A stretch of DNA of 25,427 nucleotides. Origin: a virus. Made by a program: the position numbers and the translations under genes. Position 1 is the first letter of the stretch, and each line of letters opens with the position of its first letter. The notes below the pieces were generated by a model that was not told the DNA's origin, ran no database searches, and saw only the letters and a program-made list of their open reading frames with translations. Below, piece after piece: positions 1 to 19,801 of the stretch. Location: positions 1-25,427 of the IMG/VR virus record IMGVR_UViG_3300013101_000079; one strand, given 5' to 3'.

Positions 1-57
1 GACGGTGAGGGCTTTGGTGATGAACTCGAAGGCGCACTCAAGGACTTCGGATTCTGA
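1..57 (+). CDS. 3' end of a gene with an acidic, Phe-terminated C-terminus (possible phage SSB protein)
   Basis: Only the last 18 codons are in the window, read in frame 1 and ending with TGA at 55-57. The visible tail is acidic (Asp and Glu at six of 18 positions) and ends in KDFGF. Phage single-stranded DNA-binding proteins of the T7 gp2.5 type, and bacterial SSBs, end in an acidic tail with a terminal aromatic residue that docks replication partners. The gene lies directly upstream of, and on the same strand as, a primase-helicase, which fits a replication module. The assignment is inference from a short tail and its context; any acidic protein could end this way. The 5' end lies outside the window. 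Confidence 0.45.
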   Translation, partial: DGEGFGDELEGALKDFGF

Positions 58-74
58 TTTAAACAGTGGACAAG

Positions 75-102
75 AAAAAACCCCCGCAGCAATGCGGGGG
101 TT
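75..102 (-). terminator. Intrinsic terminator reading leftward
   Basis: An 8-bp perfect stem (81-88 with 93-100, five G:C pairs then GCA) closes a GCAA/TTGC tetraloop, and two flanking A:T pairs extend it to 10 bp. On the minus strand the stem is followed by TTTTTTCTT, the layout of a strong Rho-independent terminator. On the plus strand the stem is followed only by TTGAG, so termination of the upstream rightward gene should be weak. The only leftward transcripts that could reach it come from the late operon, read antisense through the primase-helicase gene. Confidence 0.75.
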
Positions 103-134
103 GAGACCACGACCATGCCAACAAGGACATAGAC

Positions 135-3100
135 ATGATGAAAGACGCGACCAACGCCTTCCTGACCGCAATAGTACCAGACAATATGACGTTGTGCCTA
201 GTGAGACAACGCACTTGTCCCGATGAAGGAAGAGGCAAGTTTGGTTTCCGTCCCACGTTCTATTTACCCCATGCCAAAGACAGGCAAAGGCTCGACAAGG
301 CTATCGAACTGGCCTTGTCTGAGGCAGATACCAACTGGTACTTCGCCGTCTCTGGCTACGACAAGGGAAGGAGGCGCAAGAGGGAAAACGTAACCGGTAT
401 CAAAGTGTTACTGCTCGACATAGATATTAAGGCCGACGAGAAATTCTTTAGCTCCAAGGCCGAGGCCATACCGGCCCTCAAGAAGCTTCAACAAACCTGC
501 CCCAACCTACCTGCCCCATGGATTGTGGACTCTGGCTTCGGCCTGCATGTGTACTACGTCCTTGACCAGACGCTCACTGCCGACCAGTGGGCACCGATAG
601 CAACACTATTCGCCAACGTGGTGAAAGTAGTGGAACCGAAACTTATAGCTGACCCTGTCAGGACACGTGATGCGGCCAGCGTGATGCGCCTTCCCGGCTC
701 ACACAATGCGAAGACCAAGACACAAATCCCAGTTCGTATAATGAACGAAGGAACCATCGGTGATCTCGGCTTGATCAAAGCTGACCTCGCCCGTGAAGCT
801 GCCAACCACAACCTGTCGGGAGTAGACGAGGTTGTTGGCAACGAGTTGGTGCCAAACATGCCAGCCCTCCCTGCCTACATGGACGTGGCCACCGACGCTG
901 AGTTCGGCCTCGGCATGGAGAACGCACTGCGCCAAGAGTTCAGTGACCTTGAGCTTCGGCCCATCCTTGAAGGGTGCAAGCAGATGCGTGAGCTGTGCTT
1001 GAAGAAGGGTGACGTTGAAGAACCCTTCTGGATGCTGCAGCTACGCGTACTCAACACGGTGAAAAACCCTGACGATGTAGCCTGCTTCTTCTCAAGTGGC
1101 CACCCTACCTACTCGGAGGCAGGCACTCGCAGAAAGATGCGGCACATCAGAGAGAACTTTGACGCGGCCACCACCGGCTGCGAAGAGTTCAAGATCATGA
1201 ACAAGTCCGGGTGCTACAACTGCCCCAACGCCAAGAAAGTCTGGACACCAAGCCAGCTTGCCGTGGTAGCTGTTCAGAATGAAGAAGAAACGGCAGCAAA
1301 AGAGGAAGCTCATGAGAGCGCCGAGAGCGGCGTTGTTACCTCACAGGGCTACATCCCCCAGCCTACCTATGCTAAGCAGAAGAGAACACACGGTGGCAGG
1401 CACGAGGTAACGTATCTACCTGTCCGACAACCCGGCAAGAAAGCCGTACTCGAACATGAAGAGATTATCGGTGGCCATGTTAACGTGGCCCACAGTACTG
1501 CCATGGTTCATAACGTCGTGGTCAACCACGAAGAACAGGTATCCATGTCAGACGTTCGGGTTCACCTTGACGTTGTCAACATGGGGTACAGGAACCGCAC
1601 GGTAATCTCCTCCAAGGAACTCACTAGCTCGGGCTACGACGCATCGACTGACACACTCCGGTCATCGGGGCTGGTGTTTGAGACAGCGTACCCGGCCCAG
1701 AAGGCGGCTCTGTCCAACTACCTACACGAACTAGTCAGACTGTCTGCTCACAAGCGATTGTTATTCCGGCCCCGCAAGGGCTGGTTGAAGTCAGGTCGTG
1801 AGGGTGAGTGGTCATTCGTGGCAGGTGCCCGACACTACAAAGCTGACGGCAGGGTAGAGAACAACGTAACCAGCGCCGAGCACTTCGGTGAAGACGGCGA
1901 CAGCGAAGGCTTCATGGAACGCAACTGCTCAGGCATACCGAAGGGCAGGCTCGACCGCTGGAAGACAGGCATGGAGATTTACGACGGGGCCAAGATGGTG
2001 GTGCCACAACTGCTCATCCTGTCAGGCATGGCGAACCTTCTCATGCCCCTGTTCTCCAACGGACGCGGTGGAATCGTGCTGTCTCTGGTTGGTGACTCAG
2101 GCAAGGGCAAGACCACGCTGCTGAATTTCATGTGTAGTTTCATGGGCGACTATGACCGCTACTCAATCCCGGGTGATAGCACGGTGAACGCCATCGGCTC
2201 ACTGCTCGGGCAGGCGAACTGCCTCATGCTGCCTGTTGACGACACGGTGACAGAGAACGCTGAGTACATCAGCCAGCTCTTGTCCATGGTGACAGGTGGG
2301 CAGGAGAAGATGCGCATGACGTGGGACAGCAAGACGGGCGGTACGACAAAATACAACGACAAGTTCTACACCAGTATCCTGATCTCGTCCAACAAATCCA
2401 CCACTGCCACCATTGGCACTGGCGGGTCTGGGCGCAACCAACTACAGACTGAGGCCGCACGAAGCAGGACGCTTGAGTTCCCGGCCACACTGATCAAGGC
2501 ACCCGACCATATCAGTAAGGATGATTGGGACGCCTCAGCCAAGCTGGTCAGTCGTAACCACGGCCACGCTGTCGACATGTTTCTGCGCCACATCGTGGCC
2601 AATCAGGTGCAGGTTATCAATGAACTGAACAGGCTTGAGTCCAAGATATATAAGGAGCTGACTGCCAAGGTCGACGCCGACAAAGGGGCACAGGTCAGGT
2701 TCTGGTCACGGTTTCTGGCCGTCGTTGCAATGACTGCCAAGATCGTGAGCCGTGACCTGAACCTCGTGAAGTGGAATCACATGTCTATCCTGAACGCTGG
2801 CATGTCGTTGGTAGAGGCGACCGTCGCTCACGCCTCGTCGTCAGACTACGACTTGGTCGAGGACTTCTGGACTGCCTGTATCACTGAGCCTAACCCGAGC
2901 TACCCGAAGATCAACTTCGTCACCCGTAAGGGGCACGAACGCTTGATGGGTGACTGGCGCACGGAGACACGGCGCAACCGGATGCTTCATTCAGAGTGGA
3001 CAACCGGCTCGTTCCTACCTACTGGTCAGGTCAACGGGACACAGGTGGATGAGATACTTCCCGCCGCCAGCAACGCAAGCCGTTGGCGGATAGATTCGTA

Positions 3101-3401
3101 CGACATTAAGGGTAAGCGGGGCCGGTACATTCAACGTGAGCGTACCATCTTTATCCCAAGGCAGGAGTTGTTGAGTCTGGTACAGCGTGAGGCTGGCCAC
3201 ACGTTGGCAGTGACAGACTGGGCTGACTTGTCAACGCGGCTGAAGAGTGCGGGCTGCCAGATATTCGGACTGAAAGAAGGCGAGCCGTATGTACTGGCCC
3301 AGCCTCATGTGTATGTCAAGATCGGGGCCAGTAAGATCACCACGTTTGGTGCGTCGAAGGCAGTCGTTGAGATTCGACTGCCCCCTCAGAAACTCAGTTA
3401 G
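135..3401 (+). CDS. Primase-helicase: AEP-like primase domain fused to a P-loop (DUF927-type) helicase
   Basis: This 1088-residue protein probably primes and unwinds DNA at the phage fork. The N-terminal part has archaeo-eukaryotic primase-like motifs: LLLDID (metal-binding Asp95/Asp97), SGFGLHVYY (133-141) and a distal Asp173 followed by VMRLPGSHNAKT, as in RepB/PrimPol-type primases. A cysteine group follows (C281, C288, C349, C360, C363) that could bind zinc or an iron-sulfur cluster. The C-terminal half carries a Walker A motif GDSGKGKT (653-660), an acidic Walker B pair (Asp702-Asp703) after a hydrophobic strand, and a sensor-like LISSN near 750, resembling DUF927 helicases. The start is ATG 135, with AGGA at 124-127; a second ATG follows at once. 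The gene ends in TAG, with TAA two codons later, and its stop overlaps the stop of the convergent late operon. Primase and helicase roles are inferred from motifs. Confidence 0.8.
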   Translation: MMKDATNAFLTAIVPDNMTLCLVRQRTCPDEGRGKFGFRPTFYLPHAKDRQRLDKAIELALSEADTNWYFAVSGYDKGRRRKRENVTGIKVLLLDIDIKADEKFFSSKAEAIPALKKLQQTCPNLPAPWIVDSGFGLHVYYVLDQTLTADQWAPIATLFANVVKVVEPKLIADPVRTRDAASVMRLPGSHNAKTKTQIPVRIMNEGTIGDLGLIKADLAREAANHNLSGVDEVVGNELVPNMPALPAYMDVATDAEFGLGMENALRQEFSDLELRPILEGCKQMRELCLKKGDVEEPFWMLQLRVLNTVKNPDDVACFFSSGHPTYSEAGTRRKMRHIRENFDAATTGCEEFKIMNKSGCYNCPNAKKVWTPSQLAVVAVQNEEETAAKEEAHESAESGVVTSQGYIPQPTYAKQKRTHGGRHEVTYLPVRQPGKKAVLEHEEIIGGHVNVAHSTAMVHNVVVNHEEQVSMSDVRVHLDVVNMGYRNRTVISSKELTSSGYDASTDTLRSSGLVFETAYPAQKAALSNYLHELVRLSAHKRLLFRPRKGWLKSGREGEWSFVAGARHYKADGRVENNVTSAEHFGEDGDSEGFMERNCSGIPKGRLDRWKTGMEIYDGAKMVVPQLLILSGMANLLMPLFSNGRGGIVLSLVGDSGKGKTTLLNFMCSFMGDYDRYSIPGDSTVNAIGSLLGQANCLMLPVDDTVTENAEYISQLLSMVTGGQEKMRMTWDSKTGGTTKYNDKFYTSILISSNKSTTATIGTGGSGRNQLQTEAARSRTLEFPATLIKAPDHISKDDWDASAKLVSRNHGHAVDMFLRHIVANQVQVINELNRLESKIYKELTAKVDADKGAQVRFWSRFLAVVAMTAKIVSRDLNLVKWNHMSILNAGMSLVEATVAHASSSDYDLVEDFWTACITEPNPSYPKINFVTRKGHERLMGDWRTETRRNRMLHSEWTTGSFLPTGQVNGTQVDEILPAASNASRWRIDSYDIKGKRGRYIQRERTIFIPRQELLSLVQREAGHTLAVTDWADLSTRLKSAGCQIFGLKEGEPYVLAQPHVYVKIGASKITTFGASKAVVEIRLPPQKLS

Positions 3402-4084
3402 AAGTAACCTCTCTGCATTAAGCCTCGGGCGCTCTGTCCGGGGTTCACACCTTGAGGGTTGGGCATCGCTTGCTGCGGTGCCCCGCCTCCACCATATAAC
3501 TTACGCTGCTCCGCCATGGCATCATTCATCCCCGGTGCCTGCGGCCTTCCGCGCATCCCCCCATACATTCTCTGCTGCCACGTGTTCATCTGGTTCTGCC
3601 CAAGGTTAAACCGTGACGCTGTTGGCTTGCCCCGCTGGTTGTACTGCTCGCGAAGCTGGTTGAGCTGTGGCATCTGGCCATACTGCATCGGTGCTCCCGG
3701 CCTACCTTGTGAGGGTGGTGGCTGCGGTACGCCTCCCGGCCCCTGCGGCATGTACCCCGGATCGTATTGAGGCGGAGCCTGTCGTATCGGTGCCGACGTG
3801 TAGTCACGCTGAGGCGGGCCGTACCCCGGCTGGCCCTGCGGCACATACTGAGGCAGCGTAGTCTGTGTCGGCATGACGGCAGGTCGACCCACCATGCTTG
3901 GCGGAGCCTGCTGACCTTGAAGGTTCCCCATCCTGCCCTGCCACCCACCCTGCGGGGCTGGAGCAGGTGTCGCTGCCACCGGAGCGGGAGCGGGAGGCTT
4001 CGCTGTAGCCGTGTTGTTAGCAGGTGCAGTTGGCACGCCTCCTGCAGTTGGATTAAACCCACCCATTCCCGGTATTGCTGGCAT
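3398..4084 (-). CDS. Pro/Gln/Gly-rich low-complexity protein, likely virion-associated
   Basis: This 228-residue protein has no domain that I recognise. It is rich in Pro, Gln, Gly, Ala and Met throughout, with an AP-rich segment (about 30-47) and many PQ/PG/PP steps, so it is probably disordered. It ends in SARGLMQRGYF, a short motif that recurs in other virion-region proteins here. It is the last cistron of the leftward structural operon. The ATG overlaps the stop of the upstream ORF as TGATG, and the Shine-Dalgarno sequence GGGAG lies seven bases before it, so translation is probably coupled. The stop is TAA, sharing bases with the stop of the convergent primase-helicase gene. A structural or ejected role is inferred from position alone. 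Confidence 0.75.
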   Translation of the reverse strand: MPAIPGMGGFNPTAGGVPTAPANNTATAKPPAPAPVAATPAPAPQGGWQGRMGNLQGQQAPPSMVGRPAVMPTQTTLPQYVPQGQPGYGPPQRDYTSAPIRQAPPQYDPGYMPQGPGGVPQPPPSQGRPGAPMQYGQMPQLNQLREQYNQRGKPTASRFNLGQNQMNTWQQRMYGGMRGRPQAPGMNDAMAEQRKLYGGGGAPQQAMPNPQGVNPGQSARGLMQRGYF

Positions 4085-5895: not shown

Positions 5896-5898
5896 CTA
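5896..5898 (-). other. In-frame amber (TAG) codon interrupting the giant ejection protein
   Basis: The minus strand reads CGT TAG GGA. Upstream codons give LNPGFLGVNVFR and downstream codons give GINARIQT and then MSIPGVDRAAL, in one frame. The two sides read as one conserved-looking segment of the polyvalent-protein type (an NPGF motif, then an asparagine, a basic residue and a helix). Deleting or decoding this codon opens about 604 further codons. It could be a readthrough or suppressor site, a natural gene split, a mutation or a sequence error; the sequence alone cannot say which. Confidence 0.7.
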
Positions 5899-8800
5899 AC
5901 GGAACACGTTGACCCCGAGAAAGCCCGGGTTGAGAGTTGTCATGGCACGGCGCACAAAGCCGCTGGCGTTCGCAAAGGCCTTCACTACCTTGCTGTGCGA
6001 CTGGCTGGTCTTGGTGGTGGCGATGGCATCAGCATAGCGCACGTCGTAAATTATGACGGCTACTTCGGTGTCGCCTTTCTTGTACCGGACTACTGGCGGA
6101 GTGGTACCTGCCGGGAAGGCATAGCTGCTGGCCTCCGCAGGCCAGTTTTCCTTAATCCTGCGCTGCATGGCTGCTGAGTCAGAGTATGTCCCGTTCGGTG
6201 CTTCCTCCAAAACTACAGCAAAACGGTTGTCTGCCATGCTCGTTGCTTGGTTGACAACACGTCGGGCCAAGCCGTGGTTCTGTACCCCACGCTTGATGGC
6301 TCTGTCGGTGTTGACAATTAGCTGAGATATTGAGTCCGAAGCGAGGCCTCGTTCGGCACTACGCCCGTAGGCCTGATTAAGCTCGTGGCCGTATATGCTG
6401 GCGCTCGAATCGAAGTCGTCCCTCACCCACGCCATGTCGTCAAGCAGGTTAACCAGCGAGGACTGTGCATCCACATCAGACAGGGGCACGTAGGTTATGC
6501 GGTGCATGTTCTCCTGCCACGTCGCTTGGTCAATGCCTGAGTAATTCTCAAATTTAAGTGCTTCGAGGAACCCCTTCTGCTCGACCATGTCGTCGAAAGT
6601 CTTCTTGAACGCCATGTCAGGGGCGTACCGTTCTGCCTCTTTAGTGTCAATCAGGCCGAACCCACCGATGTTCCCCGGTGAGGCAGGTGCCAGTTTCTTA
6701 CGGCCAAACTCAGACAGGTTGAAGATCGCGTTGCTCAGCTCAGCAAGCTGCTGCTCATCGTAGGTCTCAGCCAGCCCTGTGACGATCTCTCTCGCCTGCT
6801 TGACAGAGACGCCGGAGCCTCCCACCTCGTTGTCAGCGGGGGCCATCTCTCCATTCTTCTTGGCTATCCAGTAGTTCCTGAACAGGGAGTGCACGGCGGC
6901 GGCGAAGCTCTGCATGTCTTTATTGGACATGGCCTTGCGGCCTTTGACTTCAACGCCCTCGGCTGTCCTGCCCTGTGCAATGTTGATGATGGGGGCCAGT
7001 TTAGTCGCCTTCATCTTGCGGATCATGTCCACGGCTTCCTGCGGCACGCGAGTCCACGCCCCATGCAGGTCAACCCTGTCAGGTACTAGCCCCTTGGCGT
7101 TCTTGAATACTTCCTGCACCCGTTTGATGGCGATCTGGGCATCTTGAACCTGACGGACAAACTCGTCCCAATGCCGCGCCTTGAGCACCTGCCGCTTCCA
7201 AGCGAACCACTTGCGTGAGAACAGGCGCGGCTTCTTGCCCTTGCCTCCGCCTCCCGACCCGCCGTTACGGTTCTCAGGATTCCAGTAGTCCTCGGCCACC
7301 TGCGTGGCCACCTGCCCGTGCAAGTAATCCTCAAACGCCTGCGCTTTCTCTGCGTCGCGAAGCTCTGCGTTGGTATCAGCCTCGGCCTGCGCCTTGGTCT
7401 TTGGCCCGATAGGCTTGTCATAATCGTCGGGCTTGGTGAGGTCAAGCTTGGCCCGGTACTCTTCCTCTTCCTTGGCTTTCTGCGCCTGTTCAGAATCAAG
7501 CTGCTTGACAGATTCCTCGTAGGCATCTTGTGAGGCTTGCTGTTTTGGAGTCAAGCTCATGCGACCGGCGGCACGTTTGCCTGCCGCACTGGGCACGCCG
7601 GTTTTATCAGTGAACATGCTCGGCTGGTGGGGCGTGCGAGTACGCTCGTCCACACCATCCATGGCCTGCTCTTCCTCGGGAATAAAGCTGACTGTTGGCT
7701 CGCCTCCAAACATGTCGGGCTGCTCAGGCTTCTGGTCGATCAACCTCTCCAACTTGTCGGCAATGCGGTTCATAGCCTGTACTTCTGGCGACTCGGGTGC
7801 TCTGGTTACGATATACGCCGCCTTACCTCTCTCCCCTTTCACTGCAGGCTGCGTAATTACATTGTACCCTCGCCGCTCCAGTGCTTCGTACACACGTCGG
7901 GCTTCGGGTGCAACAGCCGCGTCTGAGTGTACTACTCTACCGGCGGCCAACTGCTCATCAATGAATTTCTTGTATAAAGCTACTCCGAACCCACGGCCTT
8001 TCAAGTCGGAGTCTAAGTCCAAAGTCTGATCAATCTGTGTTACACCTGCCTCGTGGTCGACCGTGTACGTTATCCCTCCTATCTTATTTCCTTTGGAGTC
8101 TCTCATTTCCAAGGTTATGAGACCTTCTTCATCTGCCTCCAGTTCTTCAAATGTAGCTTGTTCTGGGGACTCAGGCTCAGGTGCTGGCTCAGGTGCTGGC
8201 TCAGGTGCTGGCTCAGGTGCTGGCTCGGGTGTGGTGTCCACCTCCATCCCCGGCAGAGTCTGCTGGGTCTGGTCAAATCCTGTGCCCGGGTCAACGCCAA
8301 GGTTAACGTCTGACTTGAGCGTCATGTCGGTAGTGTCTGACTCGGTGGTTCCAAGCTCACGGGTCTTGCCCGGTGTCGCCACGTCGCCAAGCAGTATGTC
8401 CTGCTGGTTGGGCAGAGAACCGTCGGCCTTGGGCTGGTGCCGTGTCTTGAGTAATTCCTGCTGGGCTGGTGCTTTCGTTATTGAGAACACAGAGCCTTTA
8501 GGTGCACCGGGGACATGCCAGCCAGTCTTCTCATCGAAGGTAGCCTTCGGATTTGTCGTGACCTCGTAGCCCTTCAGCTTCAACGCCGCATACGCGCGAC
8601 CGGCAGAGGTAGAAACCGAGTTATCTGACTCGACTGTGCGCCCTGCTGCCAACTGCTCGTCAACGAATGAGGTGTAAAGGTCAACACCGGCACCTTTTCC
8701 GCGTTGGATAGCAGGGTCAAGTTCCTCGGTTAATGAAATGCGTGCAGTCTTGCCGGTGTTGACAACGTCGTATCCGATTGCACCGACAACTTCCCCGTTC

Positions 8801-10503
8801 AACTCTGCTACATGTCGCCGGTCATGGAAGCCTCCTTCTTCTACGTCGACGTACTCCACCTCAGCCCCCTGCTCAACCCCTTCATCTATATTTTTCTGGC
8901 GCTGGTCACGCGGTGAAAGTTCCGGCCCCAGTAACTCGCCCTCGACAGGAGGAGGAGGAGAGGGGGGAGGCGAAGATGGCTCATCTGGTATGTCAGGCAG
9001 GTCGGCGGCACCAGCTTCTTCACCTGCCGCGATAACAAGAGTCGGTGCATCCGGCATATCCGGCTCGGGGATAGGATCAGTGGTTGGTTTCGGCTTGGGA
9101 GCAGGAGCCTCAGCAGAGCCAAAAGCTGCAGCCATGGCCCCTTCGGTCACACCGCCGCCCATCATGCCAAGGAAGCCCTGATTGGCTGCCTTCACGTAGT
9201 CAATAGGCTTGCCTGTTGCCAGCTCGCCGACAGCGGACTGACCGGCCTCTTCTGGGAACTCGGTAATGCCGCCACCGACGAAGCCTTTAGCTAGTCGGGT
9301 AAGGAATGACTTGCCTGATGCAGCGAGGCCTTCACCTGCGCCGCCGGTCACGAAGGCCAGCGGAGCAATGATGCCAGCAGCGAAGGACGCGGACTCAGCG
9401 GCGGACTCGTGAGCCTCCTTGAGTGACTTGCCCTCCTCGCGAGCGTCTTCAAGCACTTCCTCGTACACAGACTTGTACGTTTCTGCCGTCACGTAGGCAG
9501 AGTTAGCTGCGCCGAAGCTGCCAGCCTTGGTTAATTTCGGATATTTCTCCGTGATCTTCTTGAGCTTCTTGATCTTGTTCACGCCCTTGAGGAGCTTGAA
9601 CCCGCCAGTAACAATACCTGCCGACGGTATGGCTGACCCAGCAATGAGGTGGGCAACTTGGCGCAGGTTGGGCATGTCGAACTGGACTTCCCCATCCTCG
9701 TCGAGTGAAATAATATCGTGCTCAAGGGATTTCTTCATCCACTCTGGGATGGTCTCGCGTACGTCTTCACCTTGCTTCTGCAGGTACGCTGCAAACTTGT
9801 CGGTAACATCGTCGTCGCCGAATCCGAAGTCGGCCATGTCAGCCAGTAGGGAGCCAACATCGTACGCACTGGCCCACAGGGATTTACCAAGCCCTTCCAT
9901 CTCATCGCCCATCTTGGCGAAGAATCCACCCGGCGCTTCCGGGCCTTTGGGGGTCTGCGGAGATTGTGAGGCGCGGCGTATTGCTGTCTCGGCCTCGGTG
10001 CGTTTGTATAACTCTTCTGTCGGGGTAGAGACCTTGTCCTCAAGACCTGTCAGCGACATGTCGGGAGCGGTGCCACTCGTTTGCGACAGGTGGCCAGCCT
10101 TCACCTTGTCAATATGGTTGCGGGTTTCTTCGGGCAGGTCATCAAACTTACCGCCGTTCTTAATCCAGTCGTCGGTGTGCCCCGGCCCCCAGTTGTACGC
10201 TGCCAACGCATGTTCAATGTCGCCATCGTACTTGGTCAACATCTTGCTCATGTAATCAGCAGTGAACCGGACGTTCTCCCCCGGGTCGTCGATAGGTTTG
10301 GTTTGATCAAACGCCGTAACCCCATAGCCGGGGTCTTGGGCAGTGTTTGGCATGACTTGTCCGAGGCCACGAGCACCTTTCGGTGACACAGCACCGGGCT
10401 GGCCAGCCGACTCCGCCTGAATCTTTGCCTCAAGCAATGCTGGGTCAAGCCCGTATCGCTGGGCGTTCTGTCGAATCAGGTCGGCGTAGTCTTGGACGGC
10501 CAT
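5896..10503 (-). CDS. Giant internal/ejection protein: lytic transglycosylase, two tandem GNAT-like domains, polyvalent C-terminal region
   Basis: This 1535-residue protein matches the T7 gp16 role: a virion protein that is ejected, cuts peptidoglycan and helps form the DNA conduit. Residues 1-120 are an SLT lysozyme-like domain, with catalytic Glu31 in KIQAESAGQPG, then GARGLGQVMP and AAYNWGPG. Ala/Gly-rich hydrophobic stretches near 283-298, 371-388 and 441-462 could insert in membranes. A Pro/acid-rich linker (about 465-540) precedes a first GNAT-like domain (about 545-678, acyl-CoA loop QRGKGAG near 597-603). A PEPA repeat and a second GNAT-like domain (about 781-905, KGRGFG loop) follow. 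Linkers carry QPDMF and QPSMF, then a Gly/Lys-rich basic patch (about 1083-1111) and a helical region. The start is ATG 10503 with GAGGA upstream. It ends at an amber codon, with the frame open again for about 600 codons beyond. Confidence 0.85.
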   Translation of the reverse strand: MAVQDYADLIRQNAQRYGLDPALLEAKIQAESAGQPGAVSPKGARGLGQVMPNTAQDPGYGVTAFDQTKPIDDPGENVRFTADYMSKMLTKYDGDIEHALAAYNWGPGHTDDWIKNGGKFDDLPEETRNHIDKVKAGHLSQTSGTAPDMSLTGLEDKVSTPTEELYKRTEAETAIRRASQSPQTPKGPEAPGGFFAKMGDEMEGLGKSLWASAYDVGSLLADMADFGFGDDDVTDKFAAYLQKQGEDVRETIPEWMKKSLEHDIISLDEDGEVQFDMPNLRQVAHLIAGSAIPSAGIVTGGFKLLKGVNKIKKLKKITEKYPKLTKAGSFGAANSAYVTAETYKSVYEEVLEDAREEGKSLKEAHESAAESASFAAGIIAPLAFVTGGAGEGLAASGKSFLTRLAKGFVGGGITEFPEEAGQSAVGELATGKPIDYVKAANQGFLGMMGGGVTEGAMAAAFGSAEAPAPKPKPTTDPIPEPDMPDAPTLVIAAGEEAGAADLPDIPDEPSSPPPSPPPPVEGELLGPELSPRDQRQKNIDEGVEQGAEVEYVDVEEGGFHDRRHVAELNGEVVGAIGYDVVNTGKTARISLTEELDPAIQRGKGAGVDLYTSFVDEQLAAGRTVESDNSVSTSAGRAYAALKLKGYEVTTNPKATFDEKTGWHVPGAPKGSVFSITKAPAQQELLKTRHQPKADGSLPNQQDILLGDVATPGKTRELGTTESDTTDMTLKSDVNLGVDPGTGFDQTQQTLPGMEVDTTPEPAPEPAPEPAPEPAPEPESPEQATFEELEADEEGLITLEMRDSKGNKIGGITYTVDHEAGVTQIDQTLDLDSDLKGRGFGVALYKKFIDEQLAAGRVVHSDAAVAPEARRVYEALERRGYNVITQPAVKGERGKAAYIVTRAPESPEVQAMNRIADKLERLIDQKPEQPDMFGGEPTVSFIPEEEQAMDGVDERTRTPHQPSMFTDKTGVPSAAGKRAAGRMSLTPKQQASQDAYEESVKQLDSEQAQKAKEEEEYRAKLDLTKPDDYDKPIGPKTKAQAEADTNAELRDAEKAQAFEDYLHGQVATQVAEDYWNPENRNGGSGGGGKGKKPRLFSRKWFAWKRQVLKARHWDEFVRQVQDAQIAIKRVQEVFKNAKGLVPDRVDLHGAWTRVPQEAVDMIRKMKATKLAPIINIAQGRTAEGVEVKGRKAMSNKDMQSFAAAVHSLFRNYWIAKKNGEMAPADNEVGGSGVSVKQAREIVTGLAETYDEQQLAELSNAIFNLSEFGRKKLAPASPGNIGGFGLIDTKEAERYAPDMAFKKTFDDMVEQKGFLEALKFENYSGIDQATWQENMHRITYVPLSDVDAQSSLVNLLDDMAWVRDDFDSSASIYGHELNQAYGRSAERGLASDSISQLIVNTDRAIKRGVQNHGLARRVVNQATSMADNRFAVVLEEAPNGTYSDSAAMQRRIKENWPAEASSYAFPAGTTPPVVRYKKGDTEVAVIIYDVRYADAIATTKTSQSHSKVVKAFANASGFVRRAMTTLNPGFLGVNVFR
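8174..8233 (-). repeat. 12-bp tandem repeat encoding a PEPA-repeat linker
   Basis: The plus-strand unit GGCTCAGGTGCT occurs four times without change (8174-8221), followed by a fifth diverged copy (8222-8233). It lies in frame within the giant ejection protein and encodes alternating Pro-Glu-Pro-Ala, a rigid extended spacer just before the second GNAT-like domain. Copy number is likely to vary by slippage between related phages. Confidence 0.9.
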
Positions 10504-10506
10504 GTG

Positions 10507-11445
10507 TTATTTCCTCGGGCGGTAACTCGCCTGCGGTACTTCGGGTTGGAGTTCTTCGCCTCGTTGAATCTGCCCCCGCGTGCCTCTGTTGAGAAACTCC
10601 CGAGCCTCAGACACAGCGGACTCATCCAGAAACCCCGGGGTTTGCATCAAGCCTCCGCCCGATTCGCTTCCGGGTGGACTAAGCCGTTCTGTTGGGAAAG
10701 ACCTAGCGTCAGCACCGGGCGAAGTTGGGTAGTACGGGTGTGATCTGCTCCGCTGCTCTCCCTTCGGTATAAACCTGTCCTTGTACGCCTGCTCCTCCCC
10801 GGAAATCTCACCTCCTTCTCCGCCGCCTGTGACCGAGTCCCATGTTCGACTTAGCCACCCCTGTTCTTCCTCTTCAGGAACAACTTCTTCGCCGCCCTCT
10901 TCAGCGGCCACCGGGTTAAGTTCTGTGTACGTGGCAGGGTACTGCGAGAGCACCTGCTGCAAGTTGAACTCAGGCGCATCTTCTGCGCGACCGATAGTGG
11001 TGTTGTACGCACCCTCCAATCCCTTGTACAGCTTCTCAAGTTTGGCTATATCTGGGGCGGTGTCTGGTGTATACAAACCTGCCTCGATCATTTTCTGCAG
11101 CGCGAGCTTAGGCTCACCGTCGAACTTGACCATGTTGTTAAACGTCTCAAGTTCCTGAGCCGACATTCCGTCCTTGCCGTAGACACTTGAGACCATGGCA
11201 CCGGCGCGGTTGTAGAACTTGTCTTCCCGCTTGTCGGCAATGTTGGTGGCTGCTGTCGACTTGTCGAAAGCCAACCGCTCACTCATGAGTCCTTGTCGAC
11301 CCTCGGAAATTTTCAGTAGATTTTCCTGCCGCTGCTTCTCAAGAGCCAGCTTACGATCTTCCCGGGCGTTCTGCTGGTAAAGCTGAGCTTGGTTGCCAGC
11401 TTCCATCAAGCCAGCACCGACGGCTCTCATCATCCTGCGTCCCAT
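10507..11445 (-). CDS. Virion-region protein with N-terminal coiled coil and disordered C-terminus
   Basis: This 312-residue protein belongs to no family that I recognise. The N-terminus (about 10-70) is Gln/Arg/Lys/Glu-rich and should form a coiled coil. A helical middle follows (about 70-155), then an acidic Glu/Gly-rich segment (about 178-225) and a Pro/Ser/Gly-rich tail with GGGLMQTPGF and a predicted short helix. It sits just before the giant ejection protein, in the place where T7-like phages encode smaller internal core proteins, so an ejection or core role is inferred. The ATG overlaps the upstream gene's stop as TAATG, and GGGAG lies six bases before the start. The stop is TAA, followed by the next gene three bases on. 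Confidence 0.8.
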   Translation of the reverse strand: MGRRMMRAVGAGLMEAGNQAQLYQQNAREDRKLALEKQRQENLLKISEGRQGLMSERLAFDKSTAATNIADKREDKFYNRAGAMVSSVYGKDGMSAQELETFNNMVKFDGEPKLALQKMIEAGLYTPDTAPDIAKLEKLYKGLEGAYNTTIGRAEDAPEFNLQQVLSQYPATYTELNPVAAEEGGEEVVPEEEEQGWLSRTWDSVTGGGEGGEISGEEQAYKDRFIPKGEQRSRSHPYYPTSPGADARSFPTERLSPPGSESGGGLMQTPGFLDESAVSEAREFLNRGTRGQIQRGEELQPEVPQASYRPRK

Positions 11446-12326: not shown

Positions 12327-13203
12327 TTGCAAATTCTCCCCAGTCGCCCATCAAGGCGTCTGTCTGGACTCTCCCATCGGTTCCTCGCTGCAGGCCTCCG
12401 GGCATAACTGACTGCTGTGCCCGACTCTGCTGCGCGTTCATTAAGCCATCGGCGGCTTCACTTCCCCCTCCACCGGCTCCAACAATGGCTCCTTCGCCAC
12501 CTCCAGCTCCGGGTACGGCAAGGGCGCTGCGGCCCGGGCCGACTTCGCCGTCCTTGGTGGTTCCGTAGTAGTCCACGTTCTTGAACTCACTTGGCTGGCC
12601 CGCCATGGCCAAAGCTGCACCGGCGATAGGCGCGATAACTGCTCCGTATTTCATGGCTGTGTCAAGCGACAAGCCTTTTGTGGCTGCGTCTTTCGTGGCC
12701 TGTGTGACCGTGGTCTTGGCTGCGTCCGAGATTCCGGGGACGATTGCCGTACTGCCTTCGGCCAAGGCTACCTCGCCCATGGTACTTCCAACTACACCCG
12801 GCATACCTGCAGACGCGGCGGGAGCGGCTGTACCTGCGAGCACGCTGGCTGAGTTGGCTGTCATTCCCGGCATCATGGCTGCGTTGGCCGCCAGTCCTGT
12901 ATCTACACCAACCGCTCCTGTTCCAATTATGGCTTCGCCTGCTGCAGTAGCTTCGCCAGCGGCGGCGGCACCGAAGCCGCCTTCGCCGATTCCAAACGTA
13001 CCTGCGATGGCTGTCGCTCCCGACCACATGGTCGAGCCGACGGCTCCCATAAATCCCCCGAAGGAGTTCACTCCTGCGAAGGCGGTGAACCCTACACTGG
13101 CTACGCCCGCTGTAAACACGGTGGCAGCGACAAGGGCTATAACCATCCAGTTATCCTTGACGAACTTCCAAGCTTTCTTCAGGCCTTTCTTGATAAAACT
13201 CAC
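12319..13203 (-). CDS. Membrane-associated virion protein (amphipathic N-terminus plus hydrophobic segment)
   Basis: This protein is about 294 residues. It opens with a basic amphipathic helix, SFIKKGLKKAWKFVKDNW, followed at once by a hydrophobic segment (MVIALVAATVFTAGVASVGF) and then a very Ala/Gly-rich region to about residue 200 with little charge. This architecture is common in podophage proteins encoded near the ejection proteins and suggests membrane insertion during DNA delivery. I chose GTG 13203: AGGAG lies eight bases upstream and the start overlaps the previous stop as GTGA; a GTG at 13242 lacks a good ribosome site. The C-terminus ends DALMGDWGEFANA. It terminates in TAG, with TGA three codons later (TAG ACA AGT TGA). 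The precise role is inference. Confidence 0.8.
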   Translation of the reverse strand: MSFIKKGLKKAWKFVKDNWMVIALVAATVFTAGVASVGFTAFAGVNSFGGFMGAVGSTMWSGATAIAGTFGIGEGGFGAAAAGEATAAGEAIIGTGAVGVDTGLAANAAMMPGMTANSASVLAGTAAPAASAGMPGVVGSTMGEVALAEGSTAIVPGISDAAKTTVTQATKDAATKGLSLDTAMKYGAVIAPIAGAALAMAGQPSEFKNVDYYGTTKDGEVGPGRSALAVPGAGGGEGAIVGAGGGGSEAADGLMNAQQSRAQQSVMPGGLQRGTDGRVQTDALMGDWGEFANA

Positions 13204-13658
13204 GCTGCTTTCTCCTGTGCTTCCTGCAAGTCCATGACCCACGCGTCGCCAACGGAACGGAACCCTGACAACTTGTAGAACATGTGCACTTTGCCGGTCG
13301 GGTCTTCATTGGCGATGCCCATAATAATTTTACTCGCGCGGTGCTCTCTGGCCCAACGCTTAAACTCACCCAGTATCTCAATCCCACCAGCCTCACACAT
13401 GAAGTGAATGTCAGTGGCGTAGACCATCTTGTTAAATATAAACTGGTCTACTGTGGCCAGTAAAACTCCGACGACACGATCAGTGTCGTCCCGCACAATC
13501 AGAATATCTGAACCATCCTCTCGTACTACCCTCACCATGTTCCGCTTGAATAGCACCGGGTTAAAATCAATCTCTGCCCAAGACGACTTCACGTGCTGGG
13601 ACTTACAGAACCTCACAATCTCCGTGACGGCTAAATAATTTGCAACGCTTGCCTTCAC
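13200..13658 (-). CDS. GNAT-family N-acetyltransferase-like protein
   Basis: The 152-residue product fits the Gcn5-related N-acetyltransferase fold: a helix-rich start, paired strands around ILIVRDDTDRVVGVLLA, a central strand and helix (IHFMCEAGGIEILGEFKRWARE), and the C-terminal FYKLSGF motif typical of GNATs. The acyl-CoA loop is degenerate: it reads EAGGIEIL where the usual pattern is Q/R-x-x-G-x-G/A, so activity is uncertain. The start is GTG, overlapping the upstream stop as GTGA, so translation is probably coupled. Similar GNAT-like genes occur among the structural genes of other podophages, where their substrate is generally unknown. It could modify a virion or host protein, or be a structural protein using the fold. 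Confidence 0.75.
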   Translation of the reverse strand: MKASVANYLAVTEIVRFCKSQHVKSSWAEIDFNPVLFKRNMVRVVREDGSDILIVRDDTDRVVGVLLATVDQFIFNKMVYATDIHFMCEAGGIEILGEFKRWAREHRASKIIMGIANEDPTGKVHMFYKLSGFRSVGDAWVMDLQEAQEKAA

Positions 13659-19734: not shown

Positions 19735-19763
19735 AAAACACCCGACAGCGATGTGCTGTCGGG
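19735..19763 (-). terminator. Intrinsic terminator/attenuator after the major capsid gene
   Basis: A perfect 9-bp stem (19741-19749 with 19755-19763, CCCGACAGC/GCTGTCGGG) has a 5-base loop. On the minus strand it is followed by TGTTTTGAG. The U-tract is short and interrupted, so partial termination is likely. It lies between the capsid and the next structural gene and would give more capsid than tail mRNA, a common arrangement in T7-like phages. Confidence 0.75.
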
Positions 19764-19770
19764 CTTAACG

Positions 19771-19800
19771 CTTTACTCAGCTACGCTTTACTCAGCTACG
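19771..19800. repeat. Perfect 15-bp tandem duplication downstream of the capsid gene
   Basis: The 15-mer CTTTACTCAGCTACG occurs twice back to back (19771-19785 and 19786-19800), ending one base before the capsid stop codon. Read on the minus strand in capsid frame, each unit is GCG TAG CTG AGT AAA, so the capsid TAA is followed by two in-frame TAG codons. It may simply be replication slippage; no binding site is evident. Confidence 0.85.
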
Positions 19801-19801
19801 C

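Follow-up and report, generated by a model that had tools for sequence, protein, structure and literature searches.

A one-way terminator sequence upstream of a phage primase-helicase gene and the possible extension of late RNA across that gene

Organization of the locus

The DNA analysed here (the window) is a whole IMG/VR virus record of 25,427 bases. At its left end lies the 3' end of a rightward early gene (1–57, plus strand), with the visible tail DGEGFGDELEGALKDFGF*; from its acidic character we infer that this tail may be single-strand-binding-like. A gap of 77 nt separates the end of this gene (57) from the start of the primase-helicase gene (135–3401, plus strand), the final gene of the rightward early operon, whose 1088-aa product has DUF927 and DNA-primase PHROG matches. 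The late operon runs in the opposite direction. It encodes an LPD38 protein, a transglycosylase and tail, major capsid, portal and terminase proteins (4084–25427, minus strand), and its last gene (3398–4084, minus strand) encodes a P/G/Q-rich 228-aa protein that is 39% identical to the protein at the equivalent place in a relative, G003, described below.

Searches of the window gave no Rfam hits and no tRNAs. Three sigma-70-like promoters were found as against 7.8 expected, none of them in the primase/terminator region. Single-sequence searches returned no close relative of the primase or of the LPD38 protein, and a close primase was not found in GTDB genomes. Within the late operon, Pfam places a GNAT acetyltransferase domain at residues 773–873 of the 1535-aa transglycosylase protein (5896–10503), and a separate late gene (13200–13658) has an acetyltransferase PHROG match.

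The junction of the converging operons

The two operons meet tail to tail and, as an earlier note on this DNA had stated, their stop codons overlap: TAG of the primase-helicase gene (3399–3401, plus strand) and TAA of the late operon (3400–3398, minus strand) lie within a TTAG at 3398–3401. TTAG is among the four tetramers possible for 4-nt convergent overlaps in prokaryotes, and among 58 convergent overlaps in Escherichia coli a rho-independent terminator was predicted for one gene in 19 cases and for both in two (PMC2174442). Because most E. coli overlaps likewise lack a terminator, the stop overlap and the missing terminator are ordinary when taken alone; the parts of that source drawn on here do not discuss terminators lying beyond one of the two genes, which is where the window differs.

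We used a strict definition of an intrinsic terminator (a perfect stem of 8 bp or more with no more than one GU pair and at least five GC pairs, and at least five T in 7 nt). No site at the junction passed in either direction, so the early operon, too, ends here without a canonical terminator. The earlier statement that the junction has no hairpin terminator needs qualifying, however: there is no hairpin with a U-run on either strand, but U-less hairpins lie past both stops. One (3356–3385, minus strand; −17.6 kcal/mol), at a distance of 12 nt beyond the stop of the late operon, falls within the primase coding sequence; the other (3422–3444, plus strand) lies 20 nt beyond the stop of the primase gene and falls within the last late gene. 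Phage Rollin (L002) also has a 4-nt convergent overlap, at 11286–11289, and an 11-bp U-less hairpin at 11238–11271, 14 nt past its late stop, which is the strongest of 138 windows.

Ranked against windows along the same strand, a comparison made after the hairpins had been spotted, the late-side and early-side hairpins of the window stand at 2 of 126 and 9 of 97, those of G003 at 6 of 122 and 0 of 98, and those of Rollin at 0 of 138 and 9 of 158, respectively. Fourteen other overlap loci were ranked. L175, L192 and L210 resemble the window in their junction hairpins; L178 does not, nor do L181, L183, L202, L200 and L198, where the hairpins are no stronger than background, and the remaining loci are mixed.

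These hairpins could themselves make the RNA ends at the junction, through U-independent termination or through Rho release and trimming back, in which case the leftward terminator described in the next section would be a backstop for leakage. That the window, G003 and Rollin have them beyond both stops, and L175, L192 and L210 likewise, is consistent with this, as is the trimming of E. coli RNA back to protective hairpins, often within coding sequence, that is described in PMC5927463. Rut-like windows also occur close to the late stop in G003, at 17, 97 and 455 nt; the window has a single one, about 1.4 kb in, which is no more than shuffles give. Against it, neither the late-side nor the early-side hairpins of the window and G003 are followed by a U-run, the five background-level loci named above do not fit, the ranking came after the hairpins had been noticed, and the exact conserved place of the backstop would go unexplained. 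We regard this explanation as unlikely, though a serious contender.

A canonical rightward terminator is present at 6127–6146 (plus strand), inside the transglycosylase gene and 2.7 kb beyond the junction. Early RNA that runs past this point of convergence might be stopped here, or the site may be there by chance.

A leftward terminator upstream of the primase-helicase gene

A leftward terminator beyond the start of the primase gene, reported in the earlier note, is real as a sequence. The element (71–102, minus strand) has a perfect 10-bp stem (79–88/93–102) with seven GC pairs and a 4-nt loop, and the stem leads directly, on the leftward strand, into U6 at 80–75 and then C-UU. Read rightward, as in the primase mRNA, the hairpin has GAGACC after it and no U-run, and 79–102 is for this reason taken as a one-way, leftward terminator. 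Since it lies between two rightward genes, the only RNA that can reach it in the leftward direction is RNA that crosses the primase gene or starts within it.

Three strict sites occur on the two strands of the window: 79–102 (minus), 19740–19764 (minus), which is just after the major capsid gene, and the rightward site at 6127–6146 (plus) mentioned above. Shuffled windows had a mean of 0.28 strict sites, and 159 of 200 shuffles had none. By a composite score 79–102 was not extreme, a best site scoring at least as high being present in eight of 60 shuffles; long bulged hairpins score high by that measure, which therefore fails to single out 79–102 where the strict definition does. The site had also been called the first strong leftward terminator. 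It is the first canonical one, but a weaker, GU-rich terminator-like site that fails the strict definition precedes it inside the primase gene (2398–2425, minus strand), and because of this site we do not describe 79–102 as the first possible stop.

Two repeats accompany the terminators. The 10-mer TTGAGACCAC directly follows both intergenic hairpins, 79–102 and 19740–19764, at 101–110 (plus strand) and 19736–19727 (minus strand); both copies are just upstream of a gene start, on opposite strands. G003 has GAGAC at the equivalent place after its hairpin. On the minus strand, GCGTAGCTGAGTAAA occurs twice in tandem at 19772–19801, just ahead of the terminator downstream of the major capsid gene.

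An equivalent terminator in a distant relative

Scanning with an alignment of capsids gave five close records, one of which, G003 (55,720 bases, or 55.7 kb, read as loci L089, L168 and L169), carries the primase. The G003 primase is 36% identical to that of the window. Its gene and the last late gene overlap by four bases, CTAG (L168 9286–9289), and no canonical terminator is present at this junction. The 86-nt gap that precedes the primase gene holds a 12-bp hairpin, followed in the late direction by GCUUUUUAU (L168 12503–12533) and in the sense direction only by UUCC. This is the only strict terminator in the whole record, all three loci having been scanned; the strict and other scans detect it, and a looser, moderate scan misses it. 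The G003 primase gene, like that of the window, contains a weaker late-direction site (L168 12123–12142).

The terminator hairpins of the window and G003 are unrelated in sequence and occupy an equivalent gap in the same direction, so that the position and direction of the predicted terminator are kept while the hairpin sequence has turned over. This equivalent far-side placement suggests that late RNA may overlap the primase gene. It also bears on the possibility that the window's terminator is a remnant, or arose by chance, and does nothing at present. Shuffling leads one to expect about 0.28 strict sites per window, but an element of different sequence at the same place and in the same direction in G003 stands against such an origin, which we consider very improbable.

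The protein encoded upstream of the G003 primase has 344 aa and, like the product of the window's upstream gene, ends in an acidic tail (FDDDLENALAEFDFD*). Its sole match is PHROG 27714, of unknown function; a search for relatives returned only the protein itself, and no solved structure. An identity as SSB was considered for this protein and is not claimed, BLAST having shown no similarity to the Gp2.5-like protein of L038.

A palindrome, TGCTAAGNCTTAGCA, is present in nine copies in L169 (G003:35901–55720) between 5242 and 9989, five of them in intergenic gaps, and in one copy in L089 (11873–11887). It is absent from 218 of 220 loci, and from the window even with two mismatches allowed. It looks like a putative binding site for a regulator.

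Hairpins and junctions in the wider primase family

Primase alignments contributed 80 and then 46 further loci, giving 129 loci in all with a primase ORF. As to the joint occurrence of primase and capsid, none of 50 records with related capsids (tested from 80 capsid loci) had the primase, and one of 50 primase records (tested from 80) had the capsid.

Among gaps of 25–150 nt directly upstream of the primase, 56 of 74 contain a compact hairpin; the figures are 33 of 146 for other early gaps and 14 of 28 for gaps within minus-strand operons, the background being approximate because genes were called with a simple ORF picker. Most of the hairpins upstream of primases have no U-run on either strand, and where there is one it follows in the sense direction in some cases and in the late direction in others. 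Family-wide, these hairpins are evidence for a role in early mRNA and against all of them being antisense terminators. The hairpin at 79–102 could likewise act in the early mRNA, protecting the 3' end of the upstream gene after cleavage or setting expression of the upstream gene above that of the primase, its late-strand U-run then being incidental. Intergenic protective hairpins of this kind are known, for example between malE and malF (PMC5927463). What this does not account for is the U-run on the late strand in both the window and G003, in the latter as part of the only canonical terminator of the record, and we think it decidedly improbable as the explanation of 79–102.

Clustering of the primases at 55% identity gave 33 clusters; seven were left out (no visible junction or upstream gap) and 26 were compared, with a large minus-strand gene as anchor and the strict terminator definition in the final test. 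For G003 a junction distance of −4 was entered manually, since the automatic anchor skipped its 226-aa last late gene and took a large gene 676 nt away. A strict late-direction terminator was found upstream of the primase in three of six clusters with overlapping or abutting junctions and in one of 20 clusters with a gap (Fisher p 0.028, for a comparison designed after the data had been seen and uncorrected for relatedness); with the window and G003 merged as one lineage the counts become 2/5 and 1/20 (p about 0.09). The positive overlap clusters are those of the window, G003 and L177 (10 sites among its 23 members), and the positive gap cluster is that of L086; the overlap-junction clusters of L175, L197 and L216 have no far-side terminator.

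At the junction itself, strict early-direction terminators were present in none of the six overlap clusters and in nine of the 20 gap clusters, and strict late-direction terminators in none of the 26. A looser scan gave late-direction junction sites in five loci (L043, L079, L083, L009 and L061).

An apparent relation between U-run orientation and junction type (8:2 against 2:7) has been withdrawn, as it came in part from a spurious minus-strand ORF that a greedy gene caller had picked in the L010/L038 cluster; L038 really has a plus-strand ORF of 76 aa (10624–10854) and a normal rightward terminator (10902–10923). The idea of 'crossed terminators', which also rested on that ORF, was dropped.

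A model for late transcription across the primase gene

The arrangement of the window can be read as follows. Polymerase on the late strand would run past the end of the late operon, where no canonical terminator is found, cross the convergent primase-helicase gene and halt about 3.3 kb further on, at 79–102. The late mRNA would then end in a tail of 3.3 kb that is antisense to the primase, and the terminator would limit the overlap to the primase gene and shield the upstream early gene and the rest of the early operon. We hold this reading, a predicted leftward terminator combined with overlap of the primase gene by late RNA, to be somewhat likelier right than wrong. Read-through, termination activity and an effect on primase expression are what we infer from the layout. 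Rho could terminate the untranslated late tail early.

Late antisense transcription over the replication gene had been the central proposal of the earlier note, and the evidence divides over it. It gains from the position of 79–102, which only leftward RNA from across or within the primase gene can meet, from the equivalent site in G003 and from the way in which far-side terminators track overlap junctions. It loses from the U-less hairpins that the window, G003 and Rollin have just past the late stop, which could fix the RNA end there, and from the lack of a late-strand U-run in most hairpins of the family.

Late RNA crossing the primase gene might lower primase by head-on polymerase interference, by decay of duplex RNA or by occupancy of the template. 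That lowering primase late in infection is the function of the overlap is a tentative suggestion, which we rate as rather unlikely. A still broader proposal would make the layout a recurring phage switch, in which the 3' extension of a terminator-less late operon silences the primase-helicase gene once the packaging proteins have been made and the far-side terminator insulates the early neighbour, its position being kept while the hairpin sequence turns over. Such a generalization from the window and its relatives is speculative, and a little more doubtful again.

Should late RNA indeed pass over the primase gene, the end of the structural operon would in itself contribute to shutting replication down, and the change from early to late would be tied to the order of the genes instead of to a regulator. 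Among uncultivated phages the layout is a recurrent one, and what it predicts for strand-specific RNA data is simple. More generally, the expected end of a neighbouring transcript can be marked by a terminator directed into an operon.

Comparison with known systems

In kind, the arrangement resembles known convergent-overlap layouts. The excludon concept covers overlapping transcription of convergent genes that have no terminator between them, and noncontiguous-operon arrangements are said to occur in Staphylococcus aureus phages (PMC7154746). The window likewise has neighbouring transcription units of opposite orientation, no canonical terminator between them (yet U-less hairpins after both stops) and a long 3' overlap, which is here predicted. 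It differs in pairing an early with a late phage operon and in the terminator that lies beyond exactly one gene and faces into a same-direction operon.

Antisense RNA is described in several viral transcription programmes. In HFTV1, late antisense RNAs lie over DNA-metabolism operons and are proposed to shut them down, a silencing of replication genes like that suggested here; HFTV1 is, however, an archaeal virus, and its antisense RNAs have their own start sites and are described in that source without late-operon read-through (PMC12542753). The virulent phage PAK_P3 also has cis antisense transcripts between its early and late programmes, but in the opposite sense, its early antisense RNAs covering structural genes (PMC4933390). 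An antisense RNA downstream of the capsid gene is described for LUZ100 (PMC10134795). In mouse polyomavirus, late polymerase continues into the early region and gives giant late-strand transcripts antisense to early genes; this eukaryotic virus relies on polyadenylation failure and RNA editing, and not on an intrinsic terminator, in the account of PMC4583464.

A literature search found no phage described as having a terminator that faces into an early operon beyond a convergent replication gene. Rhizobium phage RHph_TM3_14A has a related primase type and a convergent opposite operon, but the terminator at its junction is an ordinary two-way one (L003 11082–11104).
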